Assembly: GCF_014203045.1 (NCBI RefSeq)
Contig: NZ_JACHIF010000012.1
Location: 1 to 64,000, forward strand
Source of the DNA: Prosthecobacter dejongeii
GTDB taxonomy: Bacteria > Verrucomicrobiota > Verrucomicrobiia > Verrucomicrobiales > Verrucomicrobiaceae
Direction: 5' to 3'
DNA: 64,000 nucleotides
Under the pieces are notes generated by a model. That model worked only from the letters and a program-made list of their open reading frames with translations, had not been told where the DNA came from and did not search any database. The position numbers and the translations under genes are program-made. This document shows positions 4,275 through 23,114 of the stretch, piece after piece (the first letter of the stretch is position 1; every line of letters starts with the position of its first letter).

Positions 4275-5177
4275 CTAAAATCTCCACAAGAAACTGGTAT
4301 GCAGCGTGAAGTCAGGACTGGCCCGAGTCAGGCCCCCACCCACGCCTAAACGAAGAGACAAATGCTTTGGCAGGCCCACCATGGTGGTCAGCAAAATCTC
4401 ATGGGAGCTGCCGTAACTGCGAAAGTCTCCGATGGCTTCCACCCCTAGAGAAAGATCATGATGGATCTCACATCTCAATCCCGCTGCATAGCCAAACCCA
4501 GGGCCGCCCCCCTGACCGGAAACAAAACTGACGAGGTTCACCACAGCACGTGTGCGTTCTGTGATGTCACTTTCTAAAATGAGGCGGGAGTAAAAACCAC
4601 TCTCCCCATGCCGATGAATGCCACCATGGGACCCATGGTCATGCCCTCCGCCCCCATGACTATGCGGGGCCACAGGGCCGCCGGCATCGGGGCCGGAACC
4701 AGGTGAATGAGAATGCGCACCCACACTGCCTGTGTGGGAATCGTCGGGCCGTTCAGCAAATTCATATCCCGCCCATAGTCCGGCCCTAAAGTTTGTGGGC
4801 CCGGTGGGAGGTATCAGAGAAATAACAAACTGAGGTGTGATGCCGGTGTAATTCCAGTCACCACTTTCATCTGAAAAACCCGCCGATAATCCAAAGGCGA
4901 GTGATGAGGCAAGGCCGATGAAAAAACCTGGCTCCGTGGAGAAAGAATCCGTGTCTCCATCCCGCTGCCATTCATAGCCTGCAATGGCGACCCCACTCAA
5001 TGGAGCGGGAATGGCACTGTCCTGTACAAGGATAAAGTCCCGTCCATGATGGCCTAGGACATTCCCAGGAACCAGACATGTAAGAGCAAAAAGAGAGGAA
5101 ATGACGAAGGCCCTGAATCCAAGGCTGAGCCTTAGAAATTTGGGGTCCATGCAGACTTCTACACAGATGTTCTTCAT
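4275..5177 (-). CDS. Probable outer-membrane beta-barrel protein with a histidine-rich segment
   Basis: About 300 residues. I chose the ATG at 5177 because AAGGA lies eight bases upstream; an ATG at 5195 and a GTG at 5201 are also in frame. A signal peptide is followed by a mature region beginning near GHHGRDF. Alternating hydrophobic beta-strand segments and a C-terminal aromatic ending (LWRF) are typical of outer-membrane barrels. A loop in the middle is packed with His, Gly and Asp (HSHSPG, HSHGGGGHDHGSHGG, HRHGE), which suggests metal binding. It follows the repeat protein gene by about 37 bp and is probably the last gene of the cytochrome/copper-chaperone operon. No family assignment is certain; a metal-binding porin or sensor of the copper or zinc state is a guess from the histidines and context. 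Confidence 0.7.
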   Translation of the reverse strand: MKNICVEVCMDPKFLRLSLGFRAFVISSLFALTCLVPGNVLGHHGRDFILVQDSAIPAPLSGVAIAGYEWQRDGDTDSFSTEPGFFIGLASSLAFGLSAGFSDESGDWNYTGITPQFVISLIPPTGPTNFRAGLWAGYEFAERPDDSHTGSVGAHSHSPGSGPDAGGPVAPHSHGGGGHDHGSHGGIHRHGESGFYSRLILESDITERTRAVVNLVSFVSGQGGGPGFGYAAGLRCEIHHDLSLGVEAIGDFRSYGSSHEILLTTMVGLPKHLSLRLGVGGGLTRASPDFTLHTSFLWRF

Positions 5178-5214
5178 GGATGGTTCCTTCGTCATTTCCA
5201 CAGTTAGTTAGGTA

Positions 5215-8200
5215 TTATTCAATGTTTTGCACAGCTTCCAACCAAACGCCGCCCGAGAGAATGGGCGATGTCTTGACCGTGGTGAGCGGACTGAGAGTAG
5301 GCATCTGGGGCAGCAGGAAGAATCCGTAGCCTTTTAAGCTTTCACCATCGTCAACAATCATGCCCTGGAAACTGACTGGGCGTTTCAGCGGCTTGTTGGG
5401 CGTGACGGTGGTGTCCGTATCTGTCAACTCCAAGGTCCCTTTGAAAGAACCACTGGTTCCTGGTACAAATTTACCAGGTGCACCCGCGACGACGGTGAGC
5501 TTGATTTTAGCTGGGTTGGGTTCGGTGATCTTGGTCGTTTTCAGACCTATCTCGAGGGTGTCCAGATCCAGCCTCGTGGTTGGGTCTGGAGCGCCGCCAT
5601 CTGTGAAGCTGATCTTGGCATTGCCCGGTCCTGCCTGGGCACCCAGGGCTAACTCATCGCTTGCAGGTGTGATGTACTTACGACCAACGACTTCCAGCTC
5701 AAGCGGGCCAAAACCCTGGGCATAGGCTCGGTCTTTGGCCACCGCACCTTTGAACCATGAGAACTCTGACATGGCCAGATTTCCCGAGGTCGCGCTGTTT
5801 TCACCCACAGTCACAGGAGCTTCGATGCTGAAGGCCCCCAGGAGGGAACCCATGCCTTTGTAAAGCACGCCGAAGACCGTCAAATGACCATGCTGCTCCA
5901 GCGGCCCACCAAAGGTCAACTTGGTGTTATCTGCCAAGACGACCACCCCTGTGGCGGCTCCTGTTGGGGCGAGCTTGAAGGCTCCGATGCTGGACCCTTG
6001 TGGCAAGGACACATCATCCAGGTTCGTTTCATCCTGCAACAGAGCCAGGGTATAGTCGCCTGCATAGGCACCGGCTGGGCTGAGCGGCTGGCGTGCAATG
6101 AAGGGCAGCACTGTGCTACCGTCTGTGACCTCGCCATAGACAGCCTTAGCAGCCGAATCTACTCGCAGGGAAACCTGAAGCGCCGCTTGGCCTGGACGTG
6201 GCAGGTTAAGACTCGTTGCAGGCGCAGCAAGCGAAGTATCCAGCAGGGCAGCGACCTTGTGTGCCTTGCTCCCCAGAGTGATTGTTCCCGTCAAGCCCCC
6301 CGTCGCAGTGACCTGAAATTTGACGGCTCCACCGAGGAGGCCATTGATGGACGCATCACGGCCCAATGGACCTGTGAAGCTGCCATGGATGCCCGTCGGC
6401 AATGCCGTGATGGCAAAGGTATCTGTCACGGGTTCACTCTTACCTGCCCTGTTGGCAGCCACGACCTCAACGGTCACGGATGTGGCAACCACCTGTGGGC
6501 GGCCACTGATGGTGCGACTCTTGTTATCAAAGCTCAGTCCGCGCGGCAGCCCTTTCACCGTCAGGGAAACGGGGTTATTCGTAGCCCCGAGTGTGAGCTG
6601 GAAAGGCTGGCCGATGATGAGATCAGGAATATCAAAATCATTCACCACAGGCGCAGCAATGACCGCGACGGTTGCAGGAACACTGTGGACCCAGCCCGCA
6701 GCATTGCGTACTTCCACTGTGTAATTGCCAGCATCGCTCAAGGCCGTTTCCTCAATCACGAGCGTAGTTGCGGCACCGTCTTCGACGGGCTTGCCGTTGC
6801 GTTTCCACTGGTAGGAAAGATTGGGACCGATGGCTTTGACACTCAGCGTGGTTGTTTTACCAGCGACCAATTCTACCGACTTCGGCTGCTGGGTAATCAC
6901 AGGTGCGATCACAGCGGGGATACCTGTCGTCCATGCAAAGTTAAAACCTTGGCGCAGACTGTTATTTGCAGGAGCATTGCTACCCACGGCGATGGTGTAG
7001 TAGCCAGGTGTCAGGGTGTAGGACCGAGTGATCGTTCCTGCCGTGGAATTGTCATAATGATCGAAGTAAGTGATGTCTTCAGCCCAAGCGACGTTGCCAC
7101 GGTTGTTGTAGGTATGACTATCGGTGCCGTCATTGTCCCAGCCGCGCCAGAGGGTAAAGCTGGGGAACATGCTGCTCGTATCTGCCAGACGGTTCGGCTC
7201 TTGCGTGCTCGGCCAGGCGACGTTGGCATCACGGCTCACCGTGAGGTTCAGGGTCAGGTTATCCTTCACATGCACGGCTACCCAGCGTGAAGTATGCGTC
7301 CAGCCCACAGGTGCGTCTCCATTCGCTTCGTTAAAAAGCGCATTGTCTTCCCAACTCCAGGCCCCCACATGATTGGAGAAACTGCCACTGTCCCCACGAC
7401 CCACGCTGATGACATGCGCGTAGCCGATACCACCTTCGGCAGGATCGCCCGCGAGGATGTTAGCGGCTGAGGTGGTTTTGTAAGTGGCTTTGTAACCTTG
7501 GCGCAGGGCATTGTTAGCCGGGGCATTGCTGCCCAGCGCGAGGCTGTACTCTCCCGCTGGCAGACGCCACGTGCGAGTGATTTTGTCAGCGGTGGAGTTA
7601 TCTACATGATCCACATAACGGATATCCTCTGCCCAAAGCACATTGCCGCGATTATTGTAGGTATGCAGGTCTGCGCCATCGTTGTCCCAGCCACGATAAA
7701 GCGTGAGGCTGGGGAACATGCTGCTCGTATCCGCCTTACGGTCAGGGGCCGCTAGGCTTGGCCATGGCACCGTCGCATCGCGCTCTACGGTCAGGGAGAA
7801 ATACACGTCCTCTTCCAGTTTCAGAGCCAGCCAGTTGCTGGTGTGCGTCCAGCCCACTGGTGGCTGACCGGGAGAAAAGAGCGCATTGTCTTCCCAGCTC
7901 CAGGCCCCGACATGGCTGCTAAAGCTGCCTGTTTCACCTGCCCCAGCAAGGACCGTAAAGGTGTAACCGATGCCTTCATCTCCTACCACAGGATCAATCT
8001 TGGCTTGTGAACTCGTGCTGTAGCTCACTTTGTAACCCTGGTTGTTTGGATTCGTCGCCGGGGCATTGCTACCGATAACAATGCTGTATTCACCAGCGGG
8101 CAGCAAATAACTGCGGGTGATCGTTGTCTCCGTGCTGTTGTCAAAATGGTCGTGATAAGTGATGTCCTCTGCCCAAGCGACATTACCCCGATTGTTATAG

Positions 8201-9876
8201 GTGTGATTGTCAGAGCCATCGTTATCCCAGCCTTTGTAAAGCGTGAAGCTAGGGAACAGGGAGCTGGTATCCGCCAGCCGCTCAGGTTCTTCGGTGGTCG
8301 GATCTGGCACTGTGGCATCACGCTCAACCGTGATGGTGAACACAGTCTGGGTTTCAAGACGAAGCGCTATCCAGTTGGAGGTGTGCGTCCAGCCGACGGG
8401 CTCCGTGCCCTGACCGTCATTGCCAAACAAAGCATTGTCTTCCCAACTCCATGCGCCGACGAGGCCGGAAACGCTCCCGCTTTCATTTTTGCCTGCGAGG
8501 ATGGTGTGCGCATAACCCACCCCACCTGTGCCGATGTAATCCGGCTCTGGATAAGTATTCGGCACCGGGTCTACAGCGCCAGAAGGCTGCGAACTAAAAG
8601 TGATGCTGTAACCCTGCCGATTCGTATTCGTTGCAGGTGCGTTGCTGCCGAGCGCGAAGGTATAATCCCCGGCTGGCAAGAACCAAGTACGGGTGATGGT
8701 TTCTTCCGTGGAGTTATCCACATGATCGGCATACTGGAGGTCTTCTGCCCAATCAATATTCCCCCGGTTGTTGTAGCTGTGGTGATCGCCACCATCGTTA
8801 TCCCAGCCGCGATAAAGCGTGAGAGAAGGAAACATGGATGCCGTATCTGCACGGCGATAAGGCAACTCTGAGCTTGGCCAAGGCACGTTAGCATCCCTCG
8901 TCATGGTGACGGTCAAGATCGTGTCTTTTTGCAGACGAACGGCAGCCCAGTTGGAGGTATGTGTCCAGCCCACGGGTGGCTCTCCAGCCTCGGCATCAAA
9001 GAGGGCGTTGTCTTCCCAACTCCACGCACCCACGTGACCATTGAAACTCACGGAGCTTTTCGACCCGAGGTCGATCTGGTGCTGATAGCCGATGCCTCCT
9101 GCTGCTGGATCTCCAGCGACATAAGAGCTCGAGACCGAAATGGTCCCGACAAGCCCGTAGGAAGTCGCATCCGGTGTTGGCGACTGGCCCGCGTAATGGG
9201 CGCCGCCCACAAAGATGGAGAAATCACCCGCAGGCAGGAAAAACGACTTGGTAACGGTGCCATCAGCATTGCCATCTCCGACCACTCCAGGAACATCCCC
9301 GAACAGGCTGGAATCACCATCCACGGCATAGCCTTTAAACACAAACGTGCTCAGACCATCCGCTGCATCGAAGTTAAAAACAGGTCCCGTCTGGTTGTCG
9401 CCGCCAACCCGCCAGTCTGCCAGAGACTGGAACACCCCCTCCTTCGCCACTCCACCGAGAGTCGCGAGATAAGCCTGGCTGATGGCAGAGCCATCATGGT
9501 CTGCACTGCCGGGCGCATTGGTGATGGGGGCAAGGTGAGCTAGGCCCTGGAAGACTGAGAAGCCAGGTTTGATGCTGCCATCCTTGGTGCCACCATTAGT
9601 AGAGCCGCTGAAGGTGATAGTAACATAGCCTGGAGCCGAAAGATTGAAGCGAAAGGCGCGCAGCTTATGACTGTCACCAAAGTCGGCATCCGTCCCATCT
9701 GCCCAACCAAAATTGCTGGTCACGGCTTGATCTGAAATCGTGATAGGGGCCGCATTCGGCAACACCGTGCCGAAGTCGCGGCCGGAATAACCGATGTGCG
9801 CTGACGCGGTCACGGTGCCCACGAGGAGCGCCGCGCCCGACAAGAGCTGGTTAAAGAAATAGCGTTTATTTTTCAT
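5215..9876 (-). CDS. Giant exported protein with four tandem ~170-residue repeats, Ig, putative-Ig and a shared C-terminal module
   Basis: 1553 residues from the ATG at 9876; the frame is open further upstream but would run into the next gene, and a signal peptide (to about residue 26) follows this ATG. Residues 30-250 form a diverged N-terminal region. Four highly similar repeats follow at about 261-430, 451-623, 635-803 and 816-985. Each carries GAWSWEDNALF, PVGWTHTS.W, ADTSSMFPS.TL, GWDNDG...HTYNNRGN, WAEDI.Y and LPAG.Y..A.GSNAPA. Then come an Ig-like domain (about 988-1075), a putative-Ig domain (1080-1160) and a ~390-residue C-terminal module (1160-1553) that also occurs in the genes at 9950 and 25593. 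The repeats faintly resemble pre-peptidase C-terminal-type beta-sandwiches. The function is unknown. The protein is surface or secreted and sits 73 bp downstream of the di-heme cytochrome gene. Confidence 0.85.
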   Translation of the reverse strand: MKNKRYFFNQLLSGAALLVGTVTASAHIGYSGRDFGTVLPNAAPITISDQAVTSNFGWADGTDADFGDSHKLRAFRFNLSAPGYVTITFSGSTNGGTKDGSIKPGFSVFQGLAHLAPITNAPGSADHDGSAISQAYLATLGGVAKEGVFQSLADWRVGGDNQTGPVFNFDAADGLSTFVFKGYAVDGDSSLFGDVPGVVGDGNADGTVTKSFFLPAGDFSIFVGGAHYAGQSPTPDATSYGLVGTISVSSSYVAGDPAAGGIGYQHQIDLGSKSSVSFNGHVGAWSWEDNALFDAEAGEPPVGWTHTSNWAAVRLQKDTILTVTMTRDANVPWPSSELPYRRADTASMFPSLTLYRGWDNDGGDHHSYNNRGNIDWAEDLQYADHVDNSTEETITRTWFLPAGDYTFALGSNAPATNTNRQGYSITFSSQPSGAVDPVPNTYPEPDYIGTGGVGYAHTILAGKNESGSVSGLVGAWSWEDNALFGNDGQGTEPVGWTHTSNWIALRLETQTVFTITVERDATVPDPTTEEPERLADTSSLFPSFTLYKGWDNDGSDNHTYNNRGNVAWAEDITYHDHFDNSTETTITRSYLLPAGEYSIVIGSNAPATNPNNQGYKVSYSTSSQAKIDPVVGDEGIGYTFTVLAGAGETGSFSSHVGAWSWEDNALFSPGQPPVGWTHTSNWLALKLEEDVYFSLTVERDATVPWPSLAAPDRKADTSSMFPSLTLYRGWDNDGADLHTYNNRGNVLWAEDIRYVDHVDNSTADKITRTWRLPAGEYSLALGSNAPANNALRQGYKATYKTTSAANILAGDPAEGGIGYAHVISVGRGDSGSFSNHVGAWSWEDNALFNEANGDAPVGWTHTSRWVAVHVKDNLTLNLTVSRDANVAWPSTQEPNRLADTSSMFPSFTLWRGWDNDGTDSHTYNNRGNVAWAEDITYFDHYDNSTAGTITRSYTLTPGYYTIAVGSNAPANNSLRQGFNFAWTTGIPAVIAPVITQQPKSVELVAGKTTTLSVKAIGPNLSYQWKRNGKPVEDGAATTLVIEETALSDAGNYTVEVRNAAGWVHSVPATVAVIAAPVVNDFDIPDLIIGQPFQLTLGATNNPVSLTVKGLPRGLSFDNKSRTISGRPQVVATSVTVEVVAANRAGKSEPVTDTFAITALPTGIHGSFTGPLGRDASINGLLGGAVKFQVTATGGLTGTITLGSKAHKVAALLDTSLAAPATSLNLPRPGQAALQVSLRVDSAAKAVYGEVTDGSTVLPFIARQPLSPAGAYAGDYTLALLQDETNLDDVSLPQGSSIGAFKLAPTGAATGVVVLADNTKLTFGGPLEQHGHLTVFGVLYKGMGSLLGAFSIEAPVTVGENSATSGNLAMSEFSWFKGAVAKDRAYAQGFGPLELEVVGRKYITPASDELALGAQAGPGNAKISFTDGGAPDPTTRLDLDTLEIGLKTTKITEPNPAKIKLTVVAGAPGKFVPGTSGSFKGTLELTDTDTTVTPNKPLKRPVSFQGMIVDDGESLKGYGFFLLPQMPTLSPLTTVKTSPILSGGVWLEAVQNIE
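6922..9096 (-). repeat. Fourfold tandem coding repeat (about 500 bp units)
   Basis: Four units within one gene at roughly 8587-9096, 8008-8526, 7468-7974 and 6922-7431. They encode near-identical blocks such as AWSWEDNALF and GSNAPA, separated by short variable linkers. The similarity implies recent duplication or ongoing homogenisation. The spacing of about 550 bp makes this stretch prone to unequal recombination and to assembly errors. Confidence 0.85.
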
Positions 9877-9949: not shown

Positions 9950-12900
9950 TCATGGGGAAGCAGCCTCAAGAAGGACGCTTCCGGAAAGTTGGGGGCTGGT
10001 GGTGGCGGTGGTCTTCGGCTCTGCCGTTGGCATCTGGGCCAGGATGAAAAAGCCATAGCCTTTGACCGAAGTGCCATCGTCCACAAAACTGCCACTGAAG
10101 GTAGCTGCGCGTTTCAATAGCTTGTTAGACGGCAGGCTAGTATCCACATCCGAAAGACTGAAGCTTCCTTTGAACACGCCCGTTCCTCCTGCTGTGAAGG
10201 CGGTTCCCTTTCCGGGTGTCACGGTGAGTTTAACCAGACCTGGGTTACTCGCTGGGAACACCAACTTAGCTGGACTGCCTGGCTGGATCTCCAGGGCCTC
10301 CAGGTTCAGCCGCGTCGCAGCATCTGGTGCTCCGCCTCGGGCAAAAACGAGGCGTGCATTGCCCGCGCCCGCTTCCAGATTCATCGCAATCTGAGTGGTG
10401 GAGGGGATGGTGTAAATCCCGCCGATGACGCCTAGATTCAATGGACCAAAAGTCTGCGGATACAGCCGTGAAAAACGCGCCTGAGTTTGTTTAAACCAAG
10501 ACACCTCACTGCCCACTGCGAGCCTGTGCATGACATCGGCACCCAATTTTAAAAGTCCCTGTGCGGAACCTGTCTTGGCATAGAGAAGGCTGTGGAAGGG
10601 TAGATGTCCTCCCTCAGCGATAGGCGCCGCGAAGGTCATCTTTGTGCCATCGGCCAGGAAAATCACCCCCGAGGCCGCCCCCTTTGTGGAAACCTTAAAG
10701 GCCCCGTGGCTATGACCTTGGGGAATGTGCGGCTGCCCCTGATCCCCCTCGCTCAGATTCAATGCCAGGGTGTAATTGCCCGTGTAACGGCTGAGTTCTA
10801 CGTCCGGCAGACGTGCAGCTAAAGGTAAGGTAGTTCCCTCCTCCTCGACCTCTCCCGTCACCATGCGGCTTTCACGACCCAGACTGAGTGTGACTTTAAG
10901 GTCGGATTTCCCTTTGCGCTTCACGAACAATTCGTGGGTGGGATCTTCATCCGGCAGCACCTTCAAAGCTCCCTTCAAGGCATATGTCACCAGGCCCAAG
11001 CTCAGCGAACCTGAATAAGCACCTGTTTTGGCAACGGTGAGTTTTAGCCGACCTCCCAAAAGGCCGTTCATCCCCAAGTTTCGTGGCAAAATACCGTCAT
11101 AGGTGCCGATTAACTGAGCTGGGAAAGGCTCCACCGTCAGCTCCTGCGAAACCTGTGGCCCCGTGCCAGCAGCATTCGTTGCCGTGGCCTTAACGAGGTA
11201 TCTTTTGCTCACCGTGGGGCGTCCGCTGATGACCCCAGTACTAGCATCGTATTTCAGACCAGGCGGCAATCCAGTGATGGTAAAACGAGTGGGCTGCTGA
11301 GTAGCACTCACTGTTTCAAAATAGTCTTGTCCAATGATGGCCGATGCAAGATCCAAAGGATTCATCACGGGTTTTAACTGCACACTCAAAGTGGCTTCCT
11401 CGCTGGTATCGCTGCCCGCACCATTACTGACGACCACATTGTAAGTGCCAATGTCCGCTGCACTCACTCCATTCAGAACTAAAGTACGTGTGGTTGCACC
11501 ACCCACAGGGGCAGTGCCACGATGCCATTGGTAAGTCAGTCCACTGCCGGTTGCTGTGACGGTGAACGTGGCGCTTTGTCCCTCTTTCACCGTGATAGAC
11601 AGCGGGTGTGCTGTGATCAATGGGGCTGGATAGACCTCCAGCTTCACCACCCGACTGGTACGGTTACCGGAGGCATTCTGCACCTGGACGCTGTAGTTGC
11701 CAGCATCAGCCGTCGTCACCGCAGTGAGGGTGAGCGTCGCTTCTTTCCCCGTGGGGATTGGCTGCGTGCCCTTATACCACTGGTAGTTAAGTCCCAGCCC
11801 TTCAGCCTGGACAGTCAGGCTCACATTTGCGCCAGGAGGAACCGCACGGTCCACAGGCTCTTGGGTGATCGTTGGTAAACCATCCTTCAGACCAGGATTG
11901 GGGTCATCACCATTGAGGAAACCGTCTTCATCTTCATCCACACTCAGGCGTGGGCCCGCTCCTGGCAATGTCCCCAAAAAGGAAACTGAATCACTGCCCT
12001 CCAGCAAGGACAGTAGCGCACTTCTGGTTAGGCTGCCTTCGCTCGCCTTTTCACTGCGGTAGGTTTTAGGCCCTGGACTGAACTGGTAAACTTTTTCCAG
12101 CCCCCCCACTTTACCGCGTACGATCAGGTCACAGTCCGCAGGATCCACCGCAGCGCGAGCTTCGAGCAGATTCAACACCGTTGTGACGCTGGTTTGGTTC
12201 CGATTCGAAACGTTCACCGTCGTGCTCATGCCCACCGCAGGTGCCACCCCGGTATCAAAGCACTGCAAAAATGCCGTGACGTGCCTCAGCTCAGCCAAAT
12301 CCAGATTGTCCAAAACGTAGGGGTGCACGATGGGAAGGACAAAGCCACTGCCATCATGCAGCATGCCGAAGCCACTCAGGGATTCCGCGCCTGCTCGGGG
12401 ATTATAAAACATGCGCTGATACAGCGTGCGCAGTGGCGGCGTCTTCAGAGGTTGGCTCGCGCCCACTTCCTGGGGTAGGTCAATGTTATTGTCGGTTCCT
12501 TTTGGGAGAAGATGGCAAACGGCACAGTGCGACTTCGTGTGATTGTTGTACAAATCGCGACCCATCACCGGATTGCCGTTGCCAAAGGCAGTCGGCAAAC
12601 TGCGGTCGTTATTGCGATTCGGATTGGGGTGATTGACGATGCTTTCTAAATACTTAGTTAGGTCCGCCATGTCTTCTTCATCAATCTGCTGCCCTCCCAT
12701 CAAGAGATCGAAAGTCGGATTGAATGCGGCAATGGTCGCCCGGTCACCCCGCCAGTGGAAAGGGGCTCCTCCCTGCATGCCACGGAGGGTCTGGGTCGTC
12801 ATCGGCCCTTTCATCGGGTGCATCACGCGCGGACGCGGTGCATTGTCATGCACGGAAAGATTCGCCCCTAGCACCGTCATCATCTGCCCACCCGGATCTC

Positions 12901-14284
12901 CCAGATCCCACGCCAGTCCATCTCGATCCGCATCAAAATGGCAGGTGCCACAGGACACCGTCCCATTGCCAGACAAACGCGCATCAAACAAGTATCCCTG
13001 CCCTGCTTTGACGGCGGCGGGCATCGGGTTGAATGCAGCGATGGGCAGCTCATTCACCACGGCGAGAGTCGCCGTCGAAACCACGCTAATGGTGTGCGAG
13101 AGTTTATTCAGAACAAACAATCTCTGGCCGGCTTCATCCAAGGCCAGACCGCGGGGCCCTCGCATTGCTGCGGAGGAAGTGTCTGCACCGATACGCAAAT
13201 CCACCCGTGACTGCACGGATGCATCTTCCGCATTCACTTTGGCAATGCGATCCGAGGCAAAGGCCGCGATCCACAAAACGCTGCCATCGCCGCTAAAAAC
13301 CAACGCCGCTGGTTGAGCCAAAGCCGTCGCCTGCGCGGCAGCATTGGGCAGCGTCTGGTAGTCAATGCCTGGATTGAGATCAAAAGCCATCACCACGCCC
13401 GTTCCTGCAGCAATACGGGTCACCCGATTCTCGGCGAAATGACCTCGGAGATTGGGCTCAAATCGCACCAAATTCAGGGCCTCCGTATTGCCCACCCAGA
13501 GATCTCCAGACCCTGGGCGAAAAGCCAGATCAAACAGCGTCGTGCCTACACCCGAAGCATAACCAAGGATGCTGTGAGTCACCGCATCAATCTCCACCAC
13601 ATCATGGTCCAGAGTGAAATGACTGACACGAGGATCATTTGCGGGAACGATCAGAGCCGTCTGTGGCGGTGCCGGAAGATTCGGGTTTTGAGGGACAGGC
13701 TGGGCCGGAGCCGCACCTTTAGGCAAGATGGTTGTGCCATTGCCCGAATCTAAAAAAGCAGCATACACTTTGCTGCCGTCCGCACTCGTGGTCAGTGCCC
13801 GCGGATACAGCCCCTCCAAAGGAACCGTCGCCACCAGTTGACGCGTGGTCACATCAAAGATGCGCATGCTGTTGTTTCGGGCGCAGGTGACGAAGGCCTT
13901 ACCTTGAGCGAAGACCACATCCGCAGGTTCATCCGCCGCGCTCAGAGTCGCCAGCACCGCCCCCTGAGTCAGCGAGATGACGGAGACGCTGTCACTCAAT
14001 TCATTGACCACCCACACTTCATCATTCGTGCGTGCCCGCACCGAAACGGGCTCCAACCCCGTGGGAATCTCCGCCACACGCACAGGCACACCGGCGCCCG
14101 TCACATCAAAAACACTCAACCGAGCATTGATAGAATCCACCGCCAGCAGCCGCGTGCCGTCAGGCGTCAGACAGATCGGATGCGTATGGCGTGCCTCAGC
14201 ATGCTCAAAAGCCGCCTGGGTAAACGCCGGCATCCACACACAGAAAGCCAGAGAAAGGAGAGAGCGAAGGAAAGGAAATTTCAT
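9950..14284 (-). CDS. Exported beta-propeller / di-heme cytochrome c (peroxidase-like) / Ig-domain protein
   Basis: 1444 residues with a signal peptide. Residues about 25-420 form a YVTN/YncE-like beta-propeller with repeated LAVDS, VAEIP and VWVVNEL blades. Two haem motifs follow: CGTCH at C445/C448/H449 and CAVCH at C587/C590/H591. Their spacing resembles that of MauG/CcpA-type di-haem peroxidases. After an Asp-rich calcium-type segment (DEDEDGFLNGDD, about 785) come two Ig-like domains (about 801-975), a putative-Ig domain and the shared C-terminal module (from about 1055). The layout recalls surface-associated di-haem peroxidases such as the copper-responsive one of Methylococcus, by family knowledge only. 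It starts in a 4-bp ATGA overlap with the HMA gene, and SCO and three cytochromes lie just upstream, so it probably belongs to an extracytoplasmic electron-transfer operon. The substrate is unknown. Confidence 0.85.
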   Translation of the reverse strand: MKFPFLRSLLSLAFCVWMPAFTQAAFEHAEARHTHPICLTPDGTRLLAVDSINARLSVFDVTGAGVPVRVAEIPTGLEPVSVRARTNDEVWVVNELSDSVSVISLTQGAVLATLSAADEPADVVFAQGKAFVTCARNNSMRIFDVTTRQLVATVPLEGLYPRALTTSADGSKVYAAFLDSGNGTTILPKGAAPAQPVPQNPNLPAPPQTALIVPANDPRVSHFTLDHDVVEIDAVTHSILGYASGVGTTLFDLAFRPGSGDLWVGNTEALNLVRFEPNLRGHFAENRVTRIAAGTGVVMAFDLNPGIDYQTLPNAAAQATALAQPAALVFSGDGSVLWIAAFASDRIAKVNAEDASVQSRVDLRIGADTSSAAMRGPRGLALDEAGQRLFVLNKLSHTISVVSTATLAVVNELPIAAFNPMPAAVKAGQGYLFDARLSGNGTVSCGTCHFDADRDGLAWDLGDPGGQMMTVLGANLSVHDNAPRPRVMHPMKGPMTTQTLRGMQGGAPFHWRGDRATIAAFNPTFDLLMGGQQIDEEDMADLTKYLESIVNHPNPNRNNDRSLPTAFGNGNPVMGRDLYNNHTKSHCAVCHLLPKGTDNNIDLPQEVGASQPLKTPPLRTLYQRMFYNPRAGAESLSGFGMLHDGSGFVLPIVHPYVLDNLDLAELRHVTAFLQCFDTGVAPAVGMSTTVNVSNRNQTSVTTVLNLLEARAAVDPADCDLIVRGKVGGLEKVYQFSPGPKTYRSEKASEGSLTRSALLSLLEGSDSVSFLGTLPGAGPRLSVDEDEDGFLNGDDPNPGLKDGLPTITQEPVDRAVPPGANVSLTVQAEGLGLNYQWYKGTQPIPTGKEATLTLTAVTTADAGNYSVQVQNASGNRTSRVVKLEVYPAPLITAHPLSITVKEGQSATFTVTATGSGLTYQWHRGTAPVGGATTRTLVLNGVSAADIGTYNVVVSNGAGSDTSEEATLSVQLKPVMNPLDLASAIIGQDYFETVSATQQPTRFTITGLPPGLKYDASTGVISGRPTVSKRYLVKATATNAAGTGPQVSQELTVEPFPAQLIGTYDGILPRNLGMNGLLGGRLKLTVAKTGAYSGSLSLGLVTYALKGALKVLPDEDPTHELFVKRKGKSDLKVTLSLGRESRMVTGEVEEEGTTLPLAARLPDVELSRYTGNYTLALNLSEGDQGQPHIPQGHSHGAFKVSTKGAASGVIFLADGTKMTFAAPIAEGGHLPFHSLLYAKTGSAQGLLKLGADVMHRLAVGSEVSWFKQTQARFSRLYPQTFGPLNLGVIGGIYTIPSTTQIAMNLEAGAGNARLVFARGGAPDAATRLNLEALEIQPGSPAKLVFPASNPGLVKLTVTPGKGTAFTAGGTGVFKGSFSLSDVDTSLPSNKLLKRAATFSGSFVDDGTSVKGYGFFILAQMPTAEPKTTATTSPQLSGSVLLEAASP

Positions 14285-14610
14285 GGGCGGACAGGGGGCA
14301 TCTTGGTTGGGCTGACCAGATTCAGCGTGCGGACATCGAAGCTTTTAGCCTTGTCCCCCAAGGCCCTCACCGCATCCTCACGCGTGAGTTGATCTGTTGT
14401 GGCAATGAGAGTGAGCTTCGGCAACTGCCCTTCAGGTGCCATTTTGATCTTCACCTCCTTCACGCCTTTGATCGTCATCAGTGATGACTTCACATGCGCG
14501 GAGCACGCACTGCAGAATAGACCCGCCACCTCGCCTTGATAAACAAAGCTCGGCTCTGCCGCTAAACATGGGCCAGCTAACCAAAGGGTAGATAAAAGCA
14601 GATATTTCAT
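14281..14610 (-). CDS. Exported heavy-metal-associated (HMA) domain protein, probable copper chaperone
   Basis: 109 residues from the ATG at 14610, which gives a clean signal peptide (cleavage near CLAAEP). A frame extension upstream would overlap the SCO gene. The single domain has the HMA pattern, with a CSAC metal-binding pair (C33, C36) in GLFCSACSAHV followed by the IKGVKEVKI strand. Most HMA proteins are cytoplasmic, so this secreted form likely hands copper over in the periplasm. It sits four bases after the SCO1-like gene and overlaps the di-haem protein start by ATGA, so the three are probably translated together. Confidence 0.8.
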   Translation of the reverse strand: MKYLLLSTLWLAGPCLAAEPSFVYQGEVAGLFCSACSAHVKSSLMTIKGVKEVKIKMAPEGQLPKLTLIATTDQLTREDAVRALGDKAKSFDVRTLNLVSPTKMPPVRP

Positions 14611-14614
14611 AGGA

Positions 14615-15295
14615 TTATAGCTCCGGGTGATCAAGCAGCCGCTGCACATCTTGAGGAAGGTTTTCGCACATCAGCGCGGCGATCTCCGGCTGAGGATGGT
14701 AGACCGAGTAATACCGACGCACTTGTCCTTGGCGGTCGATTAGTACCATGCGCAAATCATGCTCATAGTGGTCCAATGGATTTACCCGCTCATCCTCTGG
14801 AATAGCCTTGGCGGGCTCCAGGTGGAGCTCTTGAGTCATAAAATTCCAGAGGCTTTTTTGCTCGCCGGTCACGAACCACCAGGGTGAATCAGGCTTGGCC
14901 CCCACTGCCTCAGCGTAGTTTGTCAAAAGCGCAGGTGTATCTCGATCCGGATGGATGGCGACAGATAGCAAATGAAAGTCTGCACGCTCACCAAACCTCT
15001 TCAACAAAAGCTGCATCTGTGCCGTGATCGCTGCACAGCCATGGGGACAGACTGTGTAGAGATAGGCACACACCACCACTTTTCCTTTAAGATCGGAAAA
15101 CTTCACGGAGCGTCCAGTTCTCTCGGTCGCGACCAAATCTGCTTGGACCTTGGTGAGTACAGGAAGAGACTTCAGAGGTAAAGACTGCTCAAACAACGCA
15201 TTTGCTCCCACGCAAAGACCCATCGCGAGGAGGATACCCCCAAGTATAAGCCCCCGGAAAGAGCGTTGATCAGAATGTGTAGCGCGCTGTTTCAT
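14615..15295 (-). CDS. SCO1/SenC family copper chaperone or thiol reductase
   Basis: 226 residues. I chose the ATG at 15295 because it lies just after the preceding stop codon and has GAGG immediately upstream; the longer frame overlaps the cytochrome gene. A membrane anchor at about residues 14-33 is followed by a thioredoxin-like SCO fold with the CxxxC motif TVCPHGC (C83, C87) and the distal copper-ligand histidine H179 in EHDLRMVLID. SCO proteins load CuA centres of cytochrome oxidases or other copper enzymes. No oxidase subunit is present in this window, so the client is unknown. It may be one of the neighbouring cytochrome-linked proteins or an oxidase elsewhere. Confidence 0.88.
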   Translation of the reverse strand: MKQRATHSDQRSFRGLILGGILLAMGLCVGANALFEQSLPLKSLPVLTKVQADLVATERTGRSVKFSDLKGKVVVCAYLYTVCPHGCAAITAQMQLLLKRFGERADFHLLSVAIHPDRDTPALLTNYAEAVGAKPDSPWWFVTGEQKSLWNFMTQELHLEPAKAIPEDERVNPLDHYEHDLRMVLIDRQGQVRRYYSVYHPQPEIAALMCENLPQDVQRLLDHPEL

Positions 15296-15299
15296 CACC

Positions 15300-15899
15300 T
15301 CAAAGATTGCCTGCCAATGGCCATGTTGAGCCAGAAGGGTAGCGCTTTTGGAGTTCATCTAGAGTCCAGGGTTTTTGCCTTTTCCCGTGCTCAGCACGGA
15401 TGGATGCCACCAACTGAGGAGAAACAGGCAGATGACGCCGCCCCCATATCTGGACGGTGTAAGCCGCCACATCCGCCACTTCGGCATCACTGAGCCAGTT
15501 CCCAAAACCCGGCATGATCGGGTGCCTCGCTTGCGTTCCCGGCAGCGGTCCCATGACCCCATAAAGCAACACCGCACTGATTTGCTCTGCACTACACGTG
15601 CGTAGCCAAATTGATTCCAGCAACGCGGGTCCTAATGCACTCTTCCCAAGACCACCCTCCCCATGGCACATCTGACAACTACGACGATAGATCAAACCGC
15701 CTTGTGTCAGATACTCACTTCTAGATGAAGAACCCGTTGGAGGTTTATTTTCCGGCGCCGGGGCTAGTCGGGCTAACACCGCGAAGGAGCTGCTCATAAA
15801 CATCACCACCAACAAACAACATAGGACCGACAAGCGCCCCCGACCTCCCGAGGGCTTGTGACCGTTAGCTAGATGCAAGCGAATGTAAGGAACAGACAT
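15300..15899 (-). CDS. Mono-haem c-type cytochrome, secreted or membrane-tethered
   Basis: 199 residues with a hydrophobic signal or anchor at about 22-42. One haem motif, CQMCHG (C75, C78, H79), has a likely methionine axial ligand in IMPGFG, the class I cytochrome arrangement. A basic C-terminal extension (KRQKPWTLDELQKRYPSG) follows. It lies five bases after the next cytochrome gene and four before the SCO start. It is probably an electron carrier for the exported di-haem protein of the same operon. Confidence 0.85.
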   Translation of the reverse strand: MSVPYIRLHLANGHKPSGGRGRLSVLCCLLVVMFMSSSFAVLARLAPAPENKPPTGSSSRSEYLTQGGLIYRRSCQMCHGEGGLGKSALGPALLESIWLRTCSAEQISAVLLYGVMGPLPGTQARHPIMPGFGNWLSDAEVADVAAYTVQIWGRRHLPVSPQLVASIRAEHGKRQKPWTLDELQKRYPSGSTWPLAGNL

Positions 15900-15904
15900 G
15901 GCCT

Positions 15905-16579
15905 CTATGGATTTCTGGCTTCTGCGGGAACCTTGAGCAATTCAGCCTCAGTCCACATCCCCACTCGGTCCTTATCTGCCTGCCGTACGGCTTGAATCTG
16001 TTCAGCTGTTACCGCAGAGGCAGCGTTACCCCAACTGTGGCGAATGTAAGTGAGCACAGCAGCGATTTTCTCATCCGGTAATGCTCCCTGAGGAGGCATC
16101 ACTGCCGCTGGAGTTGAAAAAGGCTGTCCATTGATATGAATTGGCCCCTGAAAACCATGAAGCAAAATGCGTATCAGTCTCTCCGGCGAAGGAGCTTTCA
16201 CCCAATCTGATCCCACCAACGGCGGAAACATGTTGGGCAGCCCCAGCCCTGTGGGCTGATGACACACCCCACAGATCGTTGTGTAGATGACTTGTCCTTC
16301 CTGATACAGCGGAGGTGCTACTGCAACCGCATTGGAGACAGGAACAACCGGTGCAGGTGCCGCAGTGGCTGCATCTGCACCAAGAACAGGCGCGCTCTCC
16401 GCTACAGCAGCACTTTCAAGCACGGGTTCTGCCTGCTTAGGACGAGAGTGCTCAAAAACCCCCATCACAAAAGCACCAACCCAGAACAAGACGAAACCGG
16501 CTAGTCCAAAACCAAAACCATAGGTCAATACATGAGTCAGCCATTTAGGCAGACCCGAAGAAGATGGATGCGATGCCAT
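15905..16579 (-). CDS. Membrane-anchored mono-haem cytochrome c
   Basis: 224 residues. A single N-terminal transmembrane helix (about 17-41) is followed by an Ala/Pro/Val-rich linker (45-90) and a cytochrome domain with CGVCHQPTGLGLP (C103, C106, H107). A second conserved stretch, VMPPQGALPDEKIAAVLTYI, supplies the methionine ligand. The domain is closely related to that of the next gene upstream (16583-17068), so the two arose by tandem duplication; only this copy carries a long linker and an anchor. It may relay electrons between the membrane and soluble partners. Confidence 0.87.
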   Translation of the reverse strand: MASHPSSSGLPKWLTHVLTYGFGFGLAGFVLFWVGAFVMGVFEHSRPKQAEPVLESAAVAESAPVLGADAATAAPAPVVPVSNAVAVAPPLYQEGQVIYTTICGVCHQPTGLGLPNMFPPLVGSDWVKAPSPERLIRILLHGFQGPIHINGQPFSTPAAVMPPQGALPDEKIAAVLTYIRHSWGNAASAVTAEQIQAVRQADKDRVGMWTEAELLKVPAEARNP

Positions 16580-16582
16580 GGT

Positions 16583-17068
16583 TCAGTTCACAGAAATTTT
16601 TTCCAATTCAGCCTGGGTCCACATGGTAGTGCGGGCTTTCTCTGCCTCACGGATGGCCTTCACTTCGGCTGCGGTGACGGCACCGGCTTTATTGCCAAAA
16701 TTGGATCGTACGTAGGTCAGTACATTGGCGATCTGGTCATCACTCAAGGTGCCCTGTGCTGGCATGATAGGCGCAGGTGAATTGAAAGGCTGGCCATTGA
16801 GTTGGATAGGCCCCGTGATGCCATGAAGTACAATGCGAATCAGGCGATCCGACTTAGCCGCAGTGACCCAGTCCGAATTAGCTAGGGGAGGAAACATGCC
16901 TGGCAGCCCCAAACCCGTAGGCTGATGACAAGCGAAACAGACCTGCATATACACCGTCTGACCAGCAGTGGCATCTTGTGCAGGGGAGGGAGATAAAAGG
17001 AGAGAACAAACCGCAATGATTGAGAAACGAATGAATGAAAGCATGGAATAAAAGATTGAATTAGACAC
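16583..17068 (-). CDS. Soluble exported mono-haem cytochrome c
   Basis: 161 residues from the GTG at 17068, which has AGGTGA about nine bases upstream; an ATG at 17044 is the alternative and also leaves a signal peptide. The haem motif is CFACHQPTGLGLP (C44, C47, H48) and the methionine segment is IMPAQGTLSDDQIANVLTYV. It is a near paralogue of the anchored cytochrome immediately downstream, without the linker. It is probably the first gene of the run 17068 to 9950, in which all intergenic gaps are a few bases. Confidence 0.85.
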   Translation of the reverse strand: MSNSIFYSMLSFIRFSIIAVCSLLLSPSPAQDATAGQTVYMQVCFACHQPTGLGLPGMFPPLANSDWVTAAKSDRLIRIVLHGITGPIQLNGQPFNSPAPIMPAQGTLSDDQIANVLTYVRSNFGNKAGAVTAAEVKAIREAEKARTTMWTQAELEKISVN

Positions 17069-17158: not shown

Positions 17159-17542
17159 TTACCCCAACCTCGGAGGTGGCAAAGGCGGCGCAGAAGCCAC
17201 CCCATTCCACACTTGGTCTAACCAGGGATATTTGATCGTCGGCAGCTTGGGTCGCCACCAATGGATCTGGCAGACAGACAGCATCTCCAATTTCTTTTTC
17301 TGGGCGCTGCCACTGTCCTGTTCCTGTTTTTTTTCCTCCTTTTGCCCTGCCGAAACTGCCTGGCAGAGCGGGCATGGATGCGCCCCATCAAAAGTATCAC
17401 TCAGCCCCTCCACCACGGATCCCTTTTCTATCGAGTATGTCAAAGCCATACCAATCCAAGCCACTGACTGCAAAGCGCCCCAAGGTAGCCCGATGGAGAC
17501 CATCAGGGCGACCACGATGAGGAGGCGAGCCACGTGTTTCAT
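17159..17542 (-). CDS. Small exported or membrane protein with a CPLC motif (paralogue A)
   Basis: 127 residues. An N-terminal hydrophobic helix (about 5-35) is followed by TYSIEKGSVVEGLSDTFDGAHPCPLC and a charged Lys/Gln/Glu stretch. It is clearly homologous to the gene at 17922-18320, sharing the helix, GSVV.GLSDTFDG.H and CPLC, but the C-terminal halves have diverged. The CPxC pair after a His recalls small DUF2946-type proteins, which often neighbour copper genes; that link is inference. It lies about 90 bp upstream of the cytochrome operon on the same strand. Confidence 0.65.
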   Translation of the reverse strand: MKHVARLLIVVALMVSIGLPWGALQSVAWIGMALTYSIEKGSVVEGLSDTFDGAHPCPLCQAVSAGQKEEKKQEQDSGSAQKKKLEMLSVCQIHWWRPKLPTIKYPWLDQVWNGVASAPPLPPPRLG

Positions 17543-17921: not shown

Positions 17922-18320
17922 TTAGGCCAAAACCCCGCTTCGTGGCGGTGGCGATTCAGGCGTGAAAGGGCGTGCATGGCCGGTCTGGGATATCGTGATC
18001 CATTCAATTCCCGGCAACTTCTGAAAAACAAACTTCGGGATGGAGGCAACGGCGAGATGCAGCTTCAACTCCTTCACCATCTTCGTGGGAACCGAGTCAT
18101 CGTTGGGCTGAGGATCTTTGGTCCCCTCTTTAACCATGTGGCAGAGAGGACAGGCATGCTCACCATCAAACGTATCGCTCAGTCCCTGAACGACGGAACC
18201 CGTTTTCACCGAATAAGTGACCGCCATACCCACCCAAGCCGCTGACTGCATGACAGCCCAATGCAGCCCGATGGAAATCATCAGGGCAGCAACGAGCAAG
18301 ATGCGCGAGGCGGCTTTCAT
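17922..18320 (-). CDS. Small exported or membrane protein with a CPLC motif (paralogue B)
   Basis: 132 residues. It has the same layout as paralogue A: a hydrophobic N-terminal helix, then QSAAWVGMAVTYS, GSVVQGLSDTFDGEH and ACPLCHMV, then a charged stretch and a Pro-rich tail. The two Cys, the preceding His and the following His could bind a metal or form a disulfide. I do not recognise a named family. The tandem pair most likely arose by duplication with rapid change after the CPLC motif. Confidence 0.65.
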   Translation of the reverse strand: MKAASRILLVAALMISIGLHWAVMQSAAWVGMAVTYSVKTGSVVQGLSDTFDGEHACPLCHMVKEGTKDPQPNDDSVPTKMVKELKLHLAVASIPKFVFQKLPGIEWITISQTGHARPFTPESPPPRSGVLA

Positions 18321-18442
18321 CTGCGTTCAATGAAGCAGCTACAGGGCAAGGAGCAATCTCTTTTAGCCCAATTGATCTCGCTTTATTTGCAAATGGCCCC
18401 GACCCATCAGCTGAGCGACATCTCTCCTAAAGTTAAAAGGAG

Positions 18443-18514
<72 letters not shown>

Positions 18515-18524
18515 ATGTGATTTG

Positions 18525-18599
18525 TGGCTCCTGAGGTAGGGTTCGAACCTACGACCTAGTGGTTAACAGCCACCCGCTCTACCGCTGAGCTACTCAGGA
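18525..18599 (-). tRNA. tRNA-Asn (anticodon GTT)
   Basis: The acceptor TCCTGAG pairs with CTCAGGA. The D-stem is GCTC/GAGC, the anticodon loop CTGTTAA sits on a GGTGG/CCACT stem, and the T-arm is GTAGG-TTCGAAC-CCTAC. The 3' CCA is encoded. It lies ten bases upstream of tRNA-Met, so the two are probably one transcript. Confidence 0.93.
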
Positions 18600-18700: not shown

Positions 18701-19546
18701 TCACTGAACTGGCCTTTGAACACCTCTGCGGGCAGCGATTAAACCATGCTTGGGCGCAAAAATGAAAGCGACGGTGAAAAACAAGGCCTGCGCCAGCACG
18801 ATGCAGGCCCCCGTGGAGCCATTGATGAAAAAACTCACGTAAACTCCCAGGCAACTGGCCAGGACGGACGAGGCTGCCGCTAGCATTAACATGCGGTCAA
18901 ACCGATCTGTCAGCAGCCGGGCTGTGCAACCAGGCGTCACTAGCATCGCCACCACGAGAATGATGCCCACGGCCTGCATGGAGGCCACAATGGTGGCAGC
19001 CAGGAGCGATAAAAAAACATAGTAAATGACCCGCGTGTTCAAGCCGATGGCGTTGGCATGGGTGGGATCAAAACAAAAAAGCAGCAGATCCCGGCGCAGT
19101 AGCAGCAGGATCACCAAAGTCACTCCGGCAGTGATGAGGGTCTGGATCATGTCCGCTCGCTCAATACCGAGCACATTGCCGAACAAGATGTGGTTCAAAT
19201 GCAGCTCTGACTGGACTTTGGAAAACATCACCAGTCCCAAAGCAAACAGCCCTGTGAAAACAATGCCCATGACGGTGTCTTCCTTGATCCGGCTGTGGGC
19301 TTTGATCCAACCCGTCGCGGTGGCGCAAAGCAAGCCCGATGCAAATGCCCCCACCGGTAACGGCAGCCCGACTAAATACGCGACCACCACCCCCGGTAGC
19401 ACGGCATGAGAGATGGCATCCCCCATGAGCGACCAACCTTTGAGGACCAAGTAACAGGATAACACCGCACAAACAGCCCCGACGAGCGCTGCCACCAGCA
19501 GCGCCTCGTTCATAAAGCTGTAGAGAAAAGGCTCGTACCAATTCAT
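18701..19546 (-). CDS. mntD: Metal ABC transporter permease (ABC-3 family), second permease
   Basis: 281 residues with about eight hydrophobic helices and the ABC-3 signatures [23 protein letters not shown] and AMLVTPGCTARLLTDR. It is the last gene of the five-gene mnt operon and overlaps the preceding permease by four bases (ATGA). Together the two permeases form the heterodimeric channel. The symbol follows the metal inferred from the regulator and binding protein; zinc or iron transporters of this family look similar. Confidence 0.88.
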   Translation of the reverse strand: MNWYEPFLYSFMNEALLVAALVGAVCAVLSCYLVLKGWSLMGDAISHAVLPGVVVAYLVGLPLPVGAFASGLLCATATGWIKAHSRIKEDTVMGIVFTGLFALGLVMFSKVQSELHLNHILFGNVLGIERADMIQTLITAGVTLVILLLLRRDLLLFCFDPTHANAIGLNTRVIYYVFLSLLAATIVASMQAVGIILVVAMLVTPGCTARLLTDRFDRMLMLAAASSVLASCLGVYVSFFINGSTGACIVLAQALFFTVAFIFAPKHGLIAARRGVQRPVQ

Positions 19547-20397
19547 GACGATGAAGCTGCAAGATGACGCTGATGACGGGCAGCTAACAAACCGTGTTTA
19601 GGAGCCAGGACGAGAGCGATCAAAAACACTGCTGTTTGCAGAACCACGATGCACCCGCCGGTGGAGCCATTGAGAAAGTAGCTGACGTACGCCCCTAGCA
19701 CTCCGCACACTGCCCCTGTGCCGGTCGCAATCCAGAGCATGCGACCGAAGCGATCTGTGAGCAGATAAGCGGTAGCCCCGGGGGTTACCAGCATGGCCAC
19801 GACGAGGCAGGCCCCCACCGTCTGCAAAGCCGCGACTGCTGTGGCAGAAAGCAGGGACAGCAGCAGCAAATGTAGAAAGCGAGTGTTCAGGCCGATGCTC
19901 CGCGCATGCGTTTCATCAAAGCAGTACAGCATGAGGTCTTTCCACTTCAGCCCTAGAACCAAAATGGAGAGACCCGAGATCACCAGCACCTGAAGGATAT
20001 CTGGATCTGAGATGGCCAAAATATTGCCAAAGATGATGGTACGAAGGTTTAGATTGCTCGGGTAAAGAGTTAGCAGCAGCAGCCCCAGGGCAAAGAAAGT
20101 GGTGAAGACCACGCCAATGACCGCATCTTCCCGCAGGCGGGAATTGGCCTTCACCCAGCCCATGCCCAGGGCAGCTAGGACCCCGGCAAAAAAGGCTCCG
20201 ACCGAAAAGGGCAAGCCGATCAGCCAAGCCAACGAAACCCCCGGTACCACGGCATGCGAAAGAGCATCCCCCATGAGCGACCACCCTTTGAGGGTAACAA
20301 AGCAAGATAAAAAGGCGCAAACACCCCCGATGAGGCCACTGACGAGGATAGCCTTCACCATGTATTCATAGTGAAAGGGGGTGAGCCATTCGCTCAT
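19543..20397 (-). CDS. mntC: Metal ABC transporter permease (ABC-3 family), first permease
   Basis: 284 residues. It is a paralogue of the downstream permease, with [18 protein letters not shown] near the N-terminus, a matching GLNTRF segment and [19 protein letters not shown]. About eight membrane helices are visible. It overlaps both neighbours by four bases, so stoichiometric translational coupling with the ATPase is likely. Confidence 0.88.
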
Positions 20398-21302
20398 TCT
20401 CCCACCTCCTTAGCGCGTTCTCGGACGAGGTGCTCCCGGCCCTGTCGGTCGGTGTATTCCAGGTGCCCATCTTTCCCGAAGACCAGAGGACGTTCATCAT
20501 CCGTCAGGAGTTTCACAGTGCGACCATCGTGCTCCTGGATGGTGGACTGCTCGAAGTGGAACTGCCTCAGCACGCCACCAAAGGCATGCGTTAGATTTTG
20601 CTCGGTGAACACCAAATCCGTAGGCCCGTAGGCCAATACGGTGCGATTGATCAAGACGACTTGGTCACAAAACTCAGGCACGCTGCCGAGGTTATGCGTG
20701 GAAACCAAAATGATGTGCCCTTCTTCCCGCAGGGCTCGCAAGAGCTCGATGATCGCCGTCTCCGTCTGCACATCCACGCCGGTAAAGGGCTCGTCCAGCA
20801 TCATGATGCGCCCCTTTTGGGCCAAGGCGCGGGCGAGAAAGACGCGCTTTTTTTGCCCGCCAGAAAGCTCACCGATCTGCCGCTCTTTAAAAGCTTCCAT
20901 GCCCACGCGCTCCAGGCAATCCTGGACGATGCGTTTGTCCTCCGCCCGAGGGATCCGCATGAAATTCATGTGCCCATAACGGCCCATCATCACCACGTCC
21001 CAGACACTGACGGGAAAGCTCCAGTCCACCTCTTCACTCTGTGGCACGTAGGCCACCAGTTTGTTTCGGCGGGCAGCCAGCACGGTATCTCCGGCGATGC
21101 GCACCTGCCCTTTCGCGGGTTTTAAAAAACCCATGATGGCTTTAAACAAGGTGCTCTTCCCACTGCCGTTCACTCCCACCAGGGCGCAGATAGTCCCCGC
21201 CTTCAGGAGAAAGGAAGCATCTCTCAGCGCGATGTGTCCATTGGCATACGCCACAGTCACATCGGCAACTTCGACAGAGATGGGCGAGGAGGCAGGAGGC
21301 AT
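20394..21302 (-). CDS. mntB: Metal ABC transporter ATP-binding protein
   Basis: 302 residues. The Walker A is GVNGSGKST, the Q-loop lies in [11 protein letters not shown], the signature is LSGGQKKR, the Walker B is [12 protein letters not shown] and the H-loop histidine is in [19 protein letters not shown] is typical of manganese/zinc ATPases of this class. Past the usual ~250 residues there is a C-terminal extension of about 50 residues after LRQFHFEQ, probably a small regulatory or dimer segment. It drives import through the two coupled permeases. Confidence 0.92.
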
Positions 21303-21306
21303 GGGA

Positions 21307-22206: not shown

Positions 22207-22215
22207 AAAATCAGA

Positions 22216-23055: not shown

Positions 23056-23077
23056 CAGCTCAGCCTATAGCGCAAAT

Positions 23078-23101
23078 AAAACTTAGCCTGGACTAAGTTT
23101 T
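23078..23101. promoter_or_regulatory. MntR operator between the manganese operon and mntR
   Basis: A perfect inverted repeat with nine-base arms, AAAACTTAG and CTAAGTTTT, separated by CCTGGA. It lies 13 bases before the mntR frame and 22 bases before the barrel gene. Its size and symmetry resemble DtxR/MntR-family operators, including the ~22-bp MntR box of enterobacteria. It could repress both divergent transcripts when manganese is plentiful. Confidence 0.85.
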
Positions 23102-23114
23102 TGTTTTTTGGGGG

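Follow-up and report, generated by a model that had tools for sequence, protein, structure and literature searches.

Analysis of a 64,000-nucleotide stretch of the Prosthecobacter dejongeii genome (contig NZ_JACHIF010000012.1, positions 1 to 64,000, hereafter the window) revealed a unit of genes that is best explained as a system of the CorA-CorB (MopE-SACCP) type for acquiring copper at the surface of a verrucomicrobium that is not a methanotroph, a reading to which a probability of about 0.7 is given. The unit probably serves to catch copper outside the cell when the metal is scarce. The features of the unit are shown in Table 1.

The initial annotation had placed six open reading frames on the minus strand, running from 17068 to 9950, and these were found as described, as was their close packing, with successive spacings of 3 bp, 5 bp, ~4 bp and ~4 bp followed by a 4-bp overlap. 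The identities of the genes also held: three one-haem cytochromes c, a SCO1/SenC protein, an exported HMA protein and a 1444-aa propeller/di-haem/Ig protein, with no oxidase close by, the three COX1 genes of the genome being on other contigs. The six-gene unit is thus real, and its end point was set too early, since it runs one gene further, into a gene for a 1553-aa CorA-like copper(I)-binding protein that had been missed together with the His-rich barrel-like protein after it. The CorB-like and CorA-like genes are 73 bp apart in the window, and the unit probably starts with one or two genes for small HxCPLC proteins.

Table 1. Genes of the copper unit and domains of the CorA-like protein, with positions in the window
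Feature	Position	Strand	Basis
CPLC2, small one-TM HxCPLC protein, usual first gene	17922..18320	-	family alignment across loci, position
CPLC1, second copy of small HxCPLC membrane protein	17159..17542	-	family alignment, position
cytA, exported one-haem cytochrome c	16583..17068	-	PF00034 E=6e-14, one CxxCH
cytB, membrane-anchored one-haem cytochrome c	15905..16579	-	PF13442 E=5e-9, N-terminal hydrophobic segment
cytC, third one-haem cytochrome c	15300..15899	-	PF13442 E=2e-10
SCO1/SenC copper chaperone, CxxxC (CPHGC)	14615..15295	-	PF02630 E=1e-16
Exported HMA (heavy-metal-associated) protein, CxxC (CSAC)	14281..14610	-	PF00403 E=8e-6, over cut-off
CorB-like protein, 1444 aa	9950..14284	-	domain scans, predicted model, profile and structural matches
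CorA/MopE-like copper protein, 1553 aa	5215..9876	-	PF18252 E=1.2e-12
CorA N-domain	9148..9804	-	H27 and H70 invariant in 19/19
CorA domain 1	8569..9117	-	predicted copper ligands W304, H306, H366
CorA domain 2	7996..8532	-	predicted copper ligands W496, H498, H558
CorA domain 3	7462..7983	-	predicted copper ligands W676, H678, H738
CorA domain 4	6919..7449	-	predicted copper ligands W859, H861, H921
Barrel-like outer-membrane protein, His-rich loop, predicted mature start HHGRDF	4275..5201	-	conserved partner adjoining CorA/CorB

The CorA-like protein contained a signal peptide, an N-domain, four CorA domains in tandem, an Ig domain, a He_PIG domain and a C-terminal module in common with the CorB-like protein. 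As a whole it belongs to the Pfam family Cu_bind_CorA (PF18252; 48.3 bits against a cut-off of 27), and domain 1 by itself scored slightly under the cut-off (24.5 bits), while 36 of 40 CorA domains from relatives matched PF18252 at E<=0.1, out of 24,736. Domains 2 to 4 were 59-63% identical to domain 1, each with Trp-Thr-His and a distal His. A profile built from 40 CorA-domain sequences and searched against the PDB at E<=1 recovered CorA (E=2.4e-4) and MopE (8.6e-4) only, both aligned at GWTH. The AlphaFold model of domain 1 (pLDDT 88) was compared using Foldseek, in which the top three ranks were all CorA (4bz4, E 8e-7) and MopE (2vov) took rank 11; the top ranks thus point to the CorA fold. 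The model has a TM score of 0.49 and ~15% identity to solved CorA, and the copper site therefore rests on the conserved ligands and not on the structure.

These ligands are Kyn62 (formed from Trp), His64 and His114 in CorA (PMC3912023) and Kyn130, His132 and His203 in MopE (PMC3423442). Counterparts of the three CorA ligands (Trp, His and His) were kept in 85/85, 85/85 and 84/85 domains, respectively, with a His-to-His spacing of 60 here, compared with 50 in CorA and 71 in MopE. Four Cu(I) sites are accordingly predicted on one chain, and the protein is exported and probably surface-anchored. Export signals were judged by inspection, and signal-peptide cleavage sites were placed by eye according to the A-x-A rule.

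The N-domain is fused to the CorA domains in some genera and is a separate gene in others. Its predicted first mature residue is His (H27), and no relatives of it were found in the PDB or Pfam. H27/H70, like the HHG start of the barrel-like protein, could hold Cu(II), and from its sequence the N-domain may carry a Cu(II) site of the histidine-brace type. The C-terminal module (~360 residues) occurs at ~25 places in the genome, e.g. 5230-6318, 9953-11044 and 26973-28103, and the copy closest to that of the CorB-like protein is the one on the CorA-like protein (44%), which is consistent with a common surface anchor for the two. Large surface-type proteins of the genome were observed to carry this module, which is likely an anchor or export module.

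The CorB-like protein consists of a signal peptide, a lactonase/YVTN propeller (to ~415), a di-haem domain, two Ig domains, a He_PIG domain and the C-terminal module. Its di-haem domain, of the bCCP/MauG type, has CxxCH at 445 and 587, and the match to CCP_MauG was weak but over the cut-off. The predicted model (pLDDT 91) showed the propeller followed by the di-haem domain, and the nearest solved parts were hydrazine synthase beta and gamma, BthA and bacterial cytochrome c peroxidases. Relatives of the di-haem domain were BthA and hydrazine synthase gamma, with sub-threshold matches to the MbnH and MauG models, and the motif GLxWDLGD after the first haem site is common to the CorB-like protein and hydrazine synthase gamma. 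Set beside CorB and SACCP by their descriptions, the 1444-aa protein is best read as a protein of that kind, a MauG-like partner, because the next gene encodes a CorA-like copper protein. The initial annotation had likened it to the copper-responsive surface cytochrome c peroxidase of methanotrophs, and this likeness proved stronger than could be known then, since CorA/MopE, the copper-binding partner of that peroxidase, is the next gene.

A signature, HxY, was found at residues 654-656 of the CorB-like protein, lying 63-65 residues past the second haem motif in CorA-paired CorBs. Among all CorBs with enough flank in the best 80 of 212 loci, CorA was present within 600 bp in 52 of 53 proteins with HxY (it was lacking in L102) and beside none of the 23 homologues without it. 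The association corresponds to one clade split in the CorB tree; it may thus reflect a single event, and its use as independent repeated evidence was rejected. An axial Tyr ligates a six-coordinate haem in BthA and likewise in MauG (Tyr294) (PMC6405878), and because of this the Tyr of HxY is guessed, by analogy, to be an axial haem ligand in CorB. Unpaired propeller/di-haem proteins of Planctomycetota and Acidobacteriota (L123, L125, L126, L128-L143 and L146-L149), ~40% identical to CorB, were observed to have GLAWDLGD, as hydrazine synthase gamma does, but neither CorA nor HxY.

For the distribution of the system, a PF18252 search over relatives was too insensitive, as it missed even the host, and our own profiles were used instead. 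The CorA profile had matches in 28 of 96 relatives (11 of 27 genera), and among 145 genomes sampled evenly from the phylum it matched the host only. When 84,980 species were scanned, 212 CorB relatives were recovered; among the best 80 are Prosthecobacter, Haloferula, Roseibacillus, Cerasicoccus and Akkermansiaceae as well as, at a greater distance, Planctomycetota and Acidobacteriota. A search of a plasmid collection returned distant propeller proteins only. The usual order in Verrucomicrobiota, conserved in Verrucomicrobiales, is CPLC, an optional set of cytochrome(s), SCO and HMA, then CorB, CorA and the barrel. The initial annotation had named the absence of a conserved gene order in relatives as grounds against its proposal; the order recurs, and the six-gene cluster is therefore not due to chance. 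Many loci keep CorB-CorA without any cytochrome. In L092 three cytochrome genes stand first, before those of CorB, CorA and the barrel, and SCO and HMA come last; the accessory genes thus accompany the CorA-CorB pair even where their order has changed. Outside the nearest kin of the window, CorA is often a single domain of 240-310 aa, with a PEP-CTERM-like sorting signal at its end where scanned, and CorB lacks the Ig tail. Across loci, the number of GWxH motifs per CorA protein ranged from 1 to 5.

CorB-CorA-CorB triplets, in which two different propeller/di-haem enzymes flank one CorA, were observed in L110, L111, L112 and L114, and L109 is also triplet-like, though there CorA and one of the CorBs are encoded on the opposite strand. 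Perhaps the triplets stand for two oxidation steps.

The three cytochromes each matched PF00034 or PF13442 above the cut-off with one CxxCH apiece, and the SCO protein had both the profile match and CxxxC; its start at 15295 was preferred over 15358 on account of the ribosome-binding site. The genome has three SCO genes. Since one of them, at C3, lies ~6 kb from cox1, and the COX1 genes are on contigs other than that of the window, the SCO of the operon is probably not the main oxidase chaperone. The CPLC family has one TM, the motifs Q..AW..M...YS and TFDG.H.C.LC (also TFDG.HPC.LC) and a proline-rich (PPP) tail, with no Pfam or NCBIfam model; it was seen to head most CorB-CorA units and to occur in the loci of ~45 relatives, and it is a candidate copper carrier or assembly factor. 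The barrel-like protein starts with HHG..DF after the predicted signal peptide in most loci. It matched no family over the cut-off and is a candidate outer-membrane copper importer, judged from its sequence. No convincing dyad or k-mer was found as a shared operator upstream of the unit, and copper control is therefore unsupported by the sequence.

The pair was compared with known systems. In CorA-CorB of Methylomicrobium album BG8 and M. alcaliphilum, too, the gene for a small exported protein with a Trp-x-His...His Cu(I) site is accompanied by one for a MauG/bCCP-like di-haem protein, and the single-domain CorA of several relatives (e.g. L085, L097 and L120) is close to that CorA in size and arrangement. 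Unlike the M. album system, the present host is without particulate methane monooxygenase, the CorA-like protein has four copper domains, the N-domain and surface modules, the CorB-like protein is fused to Ig and C-terminal modules, and the cytochrome/SCO/HMA genes, CPLC and the His-rich barrel are added. The pMMO to which the copper system of methanotrophs is linked was not found: PF02461 (pmoA/amoA) was absent from the host and 95 relatives. The same search was positive in five verrucomicrobial genomes outside this set, all five belonging to a single family, and four of the five probably fall within the 145-genome draw, without a CorA match (G102 is named there and the rest were deduced). 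MopE-SACCP of Methylococcus capsulatus Bath is also a surface Cu(I) kynurenine-site protein with a surface di-haem peroxidase, and there too the copper protein is longer and modular; identity to MopE is ~14% over the domain, and host, copper-domain number and CorB fusion differ as they do from the M. album pair. The methanobactin-associated MbnP-MbnH pair, which has been called somewhat similar to MopE-SACCP (PMC3621798), follows the same logic, with a di-haem MauG-like enzyme beside a partner with a conserved Trp. However, the CorA-like proteins match no MbnP model and CorB has only a sub-threshold match to the MbnH model (20.5 of 362.9 bits), and identity with this pair was rejected.

Gene content, gene order, ligands, predicted fold and export signals were established by sequence or model, and from them we infer kynurenine formation, copper binding, the direction of copper flow and copper control. 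CorB, fed with H2O2 or O2, would turn the copper-ligand Trp in every CorA domain into kynurenine by oxidation; this would complete a tight Cu(I) site in each domain and give four sites per CorA. The cytochromes would link CorB to the electron pool, supplying or taking electrons. A further possible role, held in common with SCO, is the reduction of Cu(II) to Cu(I) and the upkeep of reduced thiol or metal sites. CorA would then gather scarce extracellular copper and pass it to the barrel protein for import, and the copper would go on to periplasmic HMA and SCO, for oxidases or other cuproenzymes. Expression would be expected to rise under copper scarcity. In Methylomicrobium album the genes for CorB and CorA are transcribed together and repressed by copper (PMC3912023). 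The oxidation of Trp to kynurenine by CorB/SACCP is a proposal in methanotrophs too, made because of the likeness to MauG (PMC3912023; PMC3621798), and CorB is not always essential, since M. alcaliphilum grew faster when corB was mutated (PMC3912023). A fuller version is offered tentatively, at somewhat under even odds: Verrucomicrobiales would have a general surface system that scavenges copper independently of methane. One CorA chain would bear as many as four kynurenine Cu(I) sites made by the peroxidase and, at its N-terminal His, a Cu(II) site (H27/H70), to which the HHG start of the partner barrel would be a second counterpart; the system's own cytochromes would supply electrons, and a new copper importer of the barrel type would empty it.

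The same chemistry could serve the opposite physiology, with the four Cu(I) sites of each CorA acting as a sink in a surface sponge against excess copper. Several GWxH motifs on one protein would suit sequestration, any importer among the genes of the operon is a candidate only, and copper-detoxification loci also carry HMA and SCO. This alternative is nevertheless considered unlikely: none of CopA ATPase, CusCBA and CopCD is among the genes of the operon, and known CorA/MopE are copper-repressed and not induced, with some mutants failing when copper is needed (PMC3912023, PMC11784148). A slightly smaller chance is given to CorB being a surface peroxidase or metal redox enzyme that removes H2O2 or cycles Cu(II)/Cu(I) and loads an unmodified CorA. 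The bCCP fold and the nearby c-type cytochromes, which could donate electrons, agree with such a role, as do the suggestion that surface cytochromes are cupric reductases (PMC3423442) and the continued growth of the M. alcaliphilum corB mutant on methane (PMC3912023). However, an unmodified CorA does not sit well with a kynurenine-site Trp that is invariant in all 85 domains, nor with the sharing of HxY by CorA-paired CorBs and its absence from unpaired ones, HxY lying in a region that might hold an axial Tyr like that of MauG and BthA.

The initial annotation had proposed copper-linked extracellular electron transfer or oxidation. Oxidation stands as the most likely chemistry, in the form of the presumed conversion of Trp to kynurenine in CorA, while a conduit for extracellular electron transfer is held to be very improbable. 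Such a conduit would fit an operon that encodes three cytochromes c together with a di-haem surface protein, and M. capsulatus is reported to have surface cytochromes and to perform extracellular electron transfer (PMC6281684). Yet multihaem conduits were lacking, the cytochromes here being all one-haem and absent from many CorB-CorA loci, and the copper proteins are accounted for by the CorA domains. A hydrazine-synthase-like enzyme forming N-N bonds was raised because hydrazine synthase beta and gamma are the nearest solved counterparts of the propeller and the di-haem domain (Foldseek top match 5c2v_B, TMt 0.78; profile matches of 2e-18 to HZS beta and 6e-12 to gamma). It was the least probable of the readings considered, and the identity was rejected, as no HZS alpha subunit over the cut-off was found in the genome, HZS model scores were far under the cut-off (e.g. 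45 of 1250 bits) and the gene partner is a different one, CorA.

In the papers found, the CorA/MopE copper system is discussed as a methanotroph trait feeding particulate methane monooxygenase. The unit had initially been called undescribed; the CorA-CorB pair is known in gammaproteobacterial methanotrophs, and what holds of that description is that the present form and host did not appear in the papers found. The accessible portions of papers linking MopE, copper and Verrucomicrobia did not report the system, and no literature on Prosthecobacter, copper and cytochrome c peroxidase was found, many subscription papers being outside the search. New here are the non-methanotroph host, the multi-site CorA, the cytochrome/SCO/HMA module and two uncharacterised conserved partners (CPLC and the barrel), and novelty is claimed for the operon and its variant form and not for the domain, because Pfam may already flag single proteins. 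A conserved CorA-CorB operon without the methane enzyme suggests that surface kynurenine-copper chemistry serves a broader need and that copper-catching of this type is more widely spread than thought. The range of 1 to 5 motifs per chain, the triplets, and the paired and unpaired CorBs offer natural experiments on whether CorB/SACCP makes kynurenine. CPLC and the HHG barrel are candidates for the import machinery of aerobic hosts with no need of methane.

In the surrounding window, positions 18701-23609 contained a Zn/Mn-type ABC uptake operon (SBP, ATPase and two permeases), a barrel protein and a divergent DtxR/MntR-like regulator. This transporter and regulator were rejected as part of the copper system because two tRNA genes, tRNA-Met and tRNA-Asn (18442-18599), intervene and the transporter does not adjoin the unit in relatives. 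A large Ig/lamin-tail-like surface protein at 3-4097 is cut by the contig start (base 1 of the window is base 1 of the contig). Positions 25593-31889 encode a 2098-aa Ig/fibronectin-like protein with the common C-terminal module and, by sequence reading, an apparent cyclophilin-type PPIase domain.
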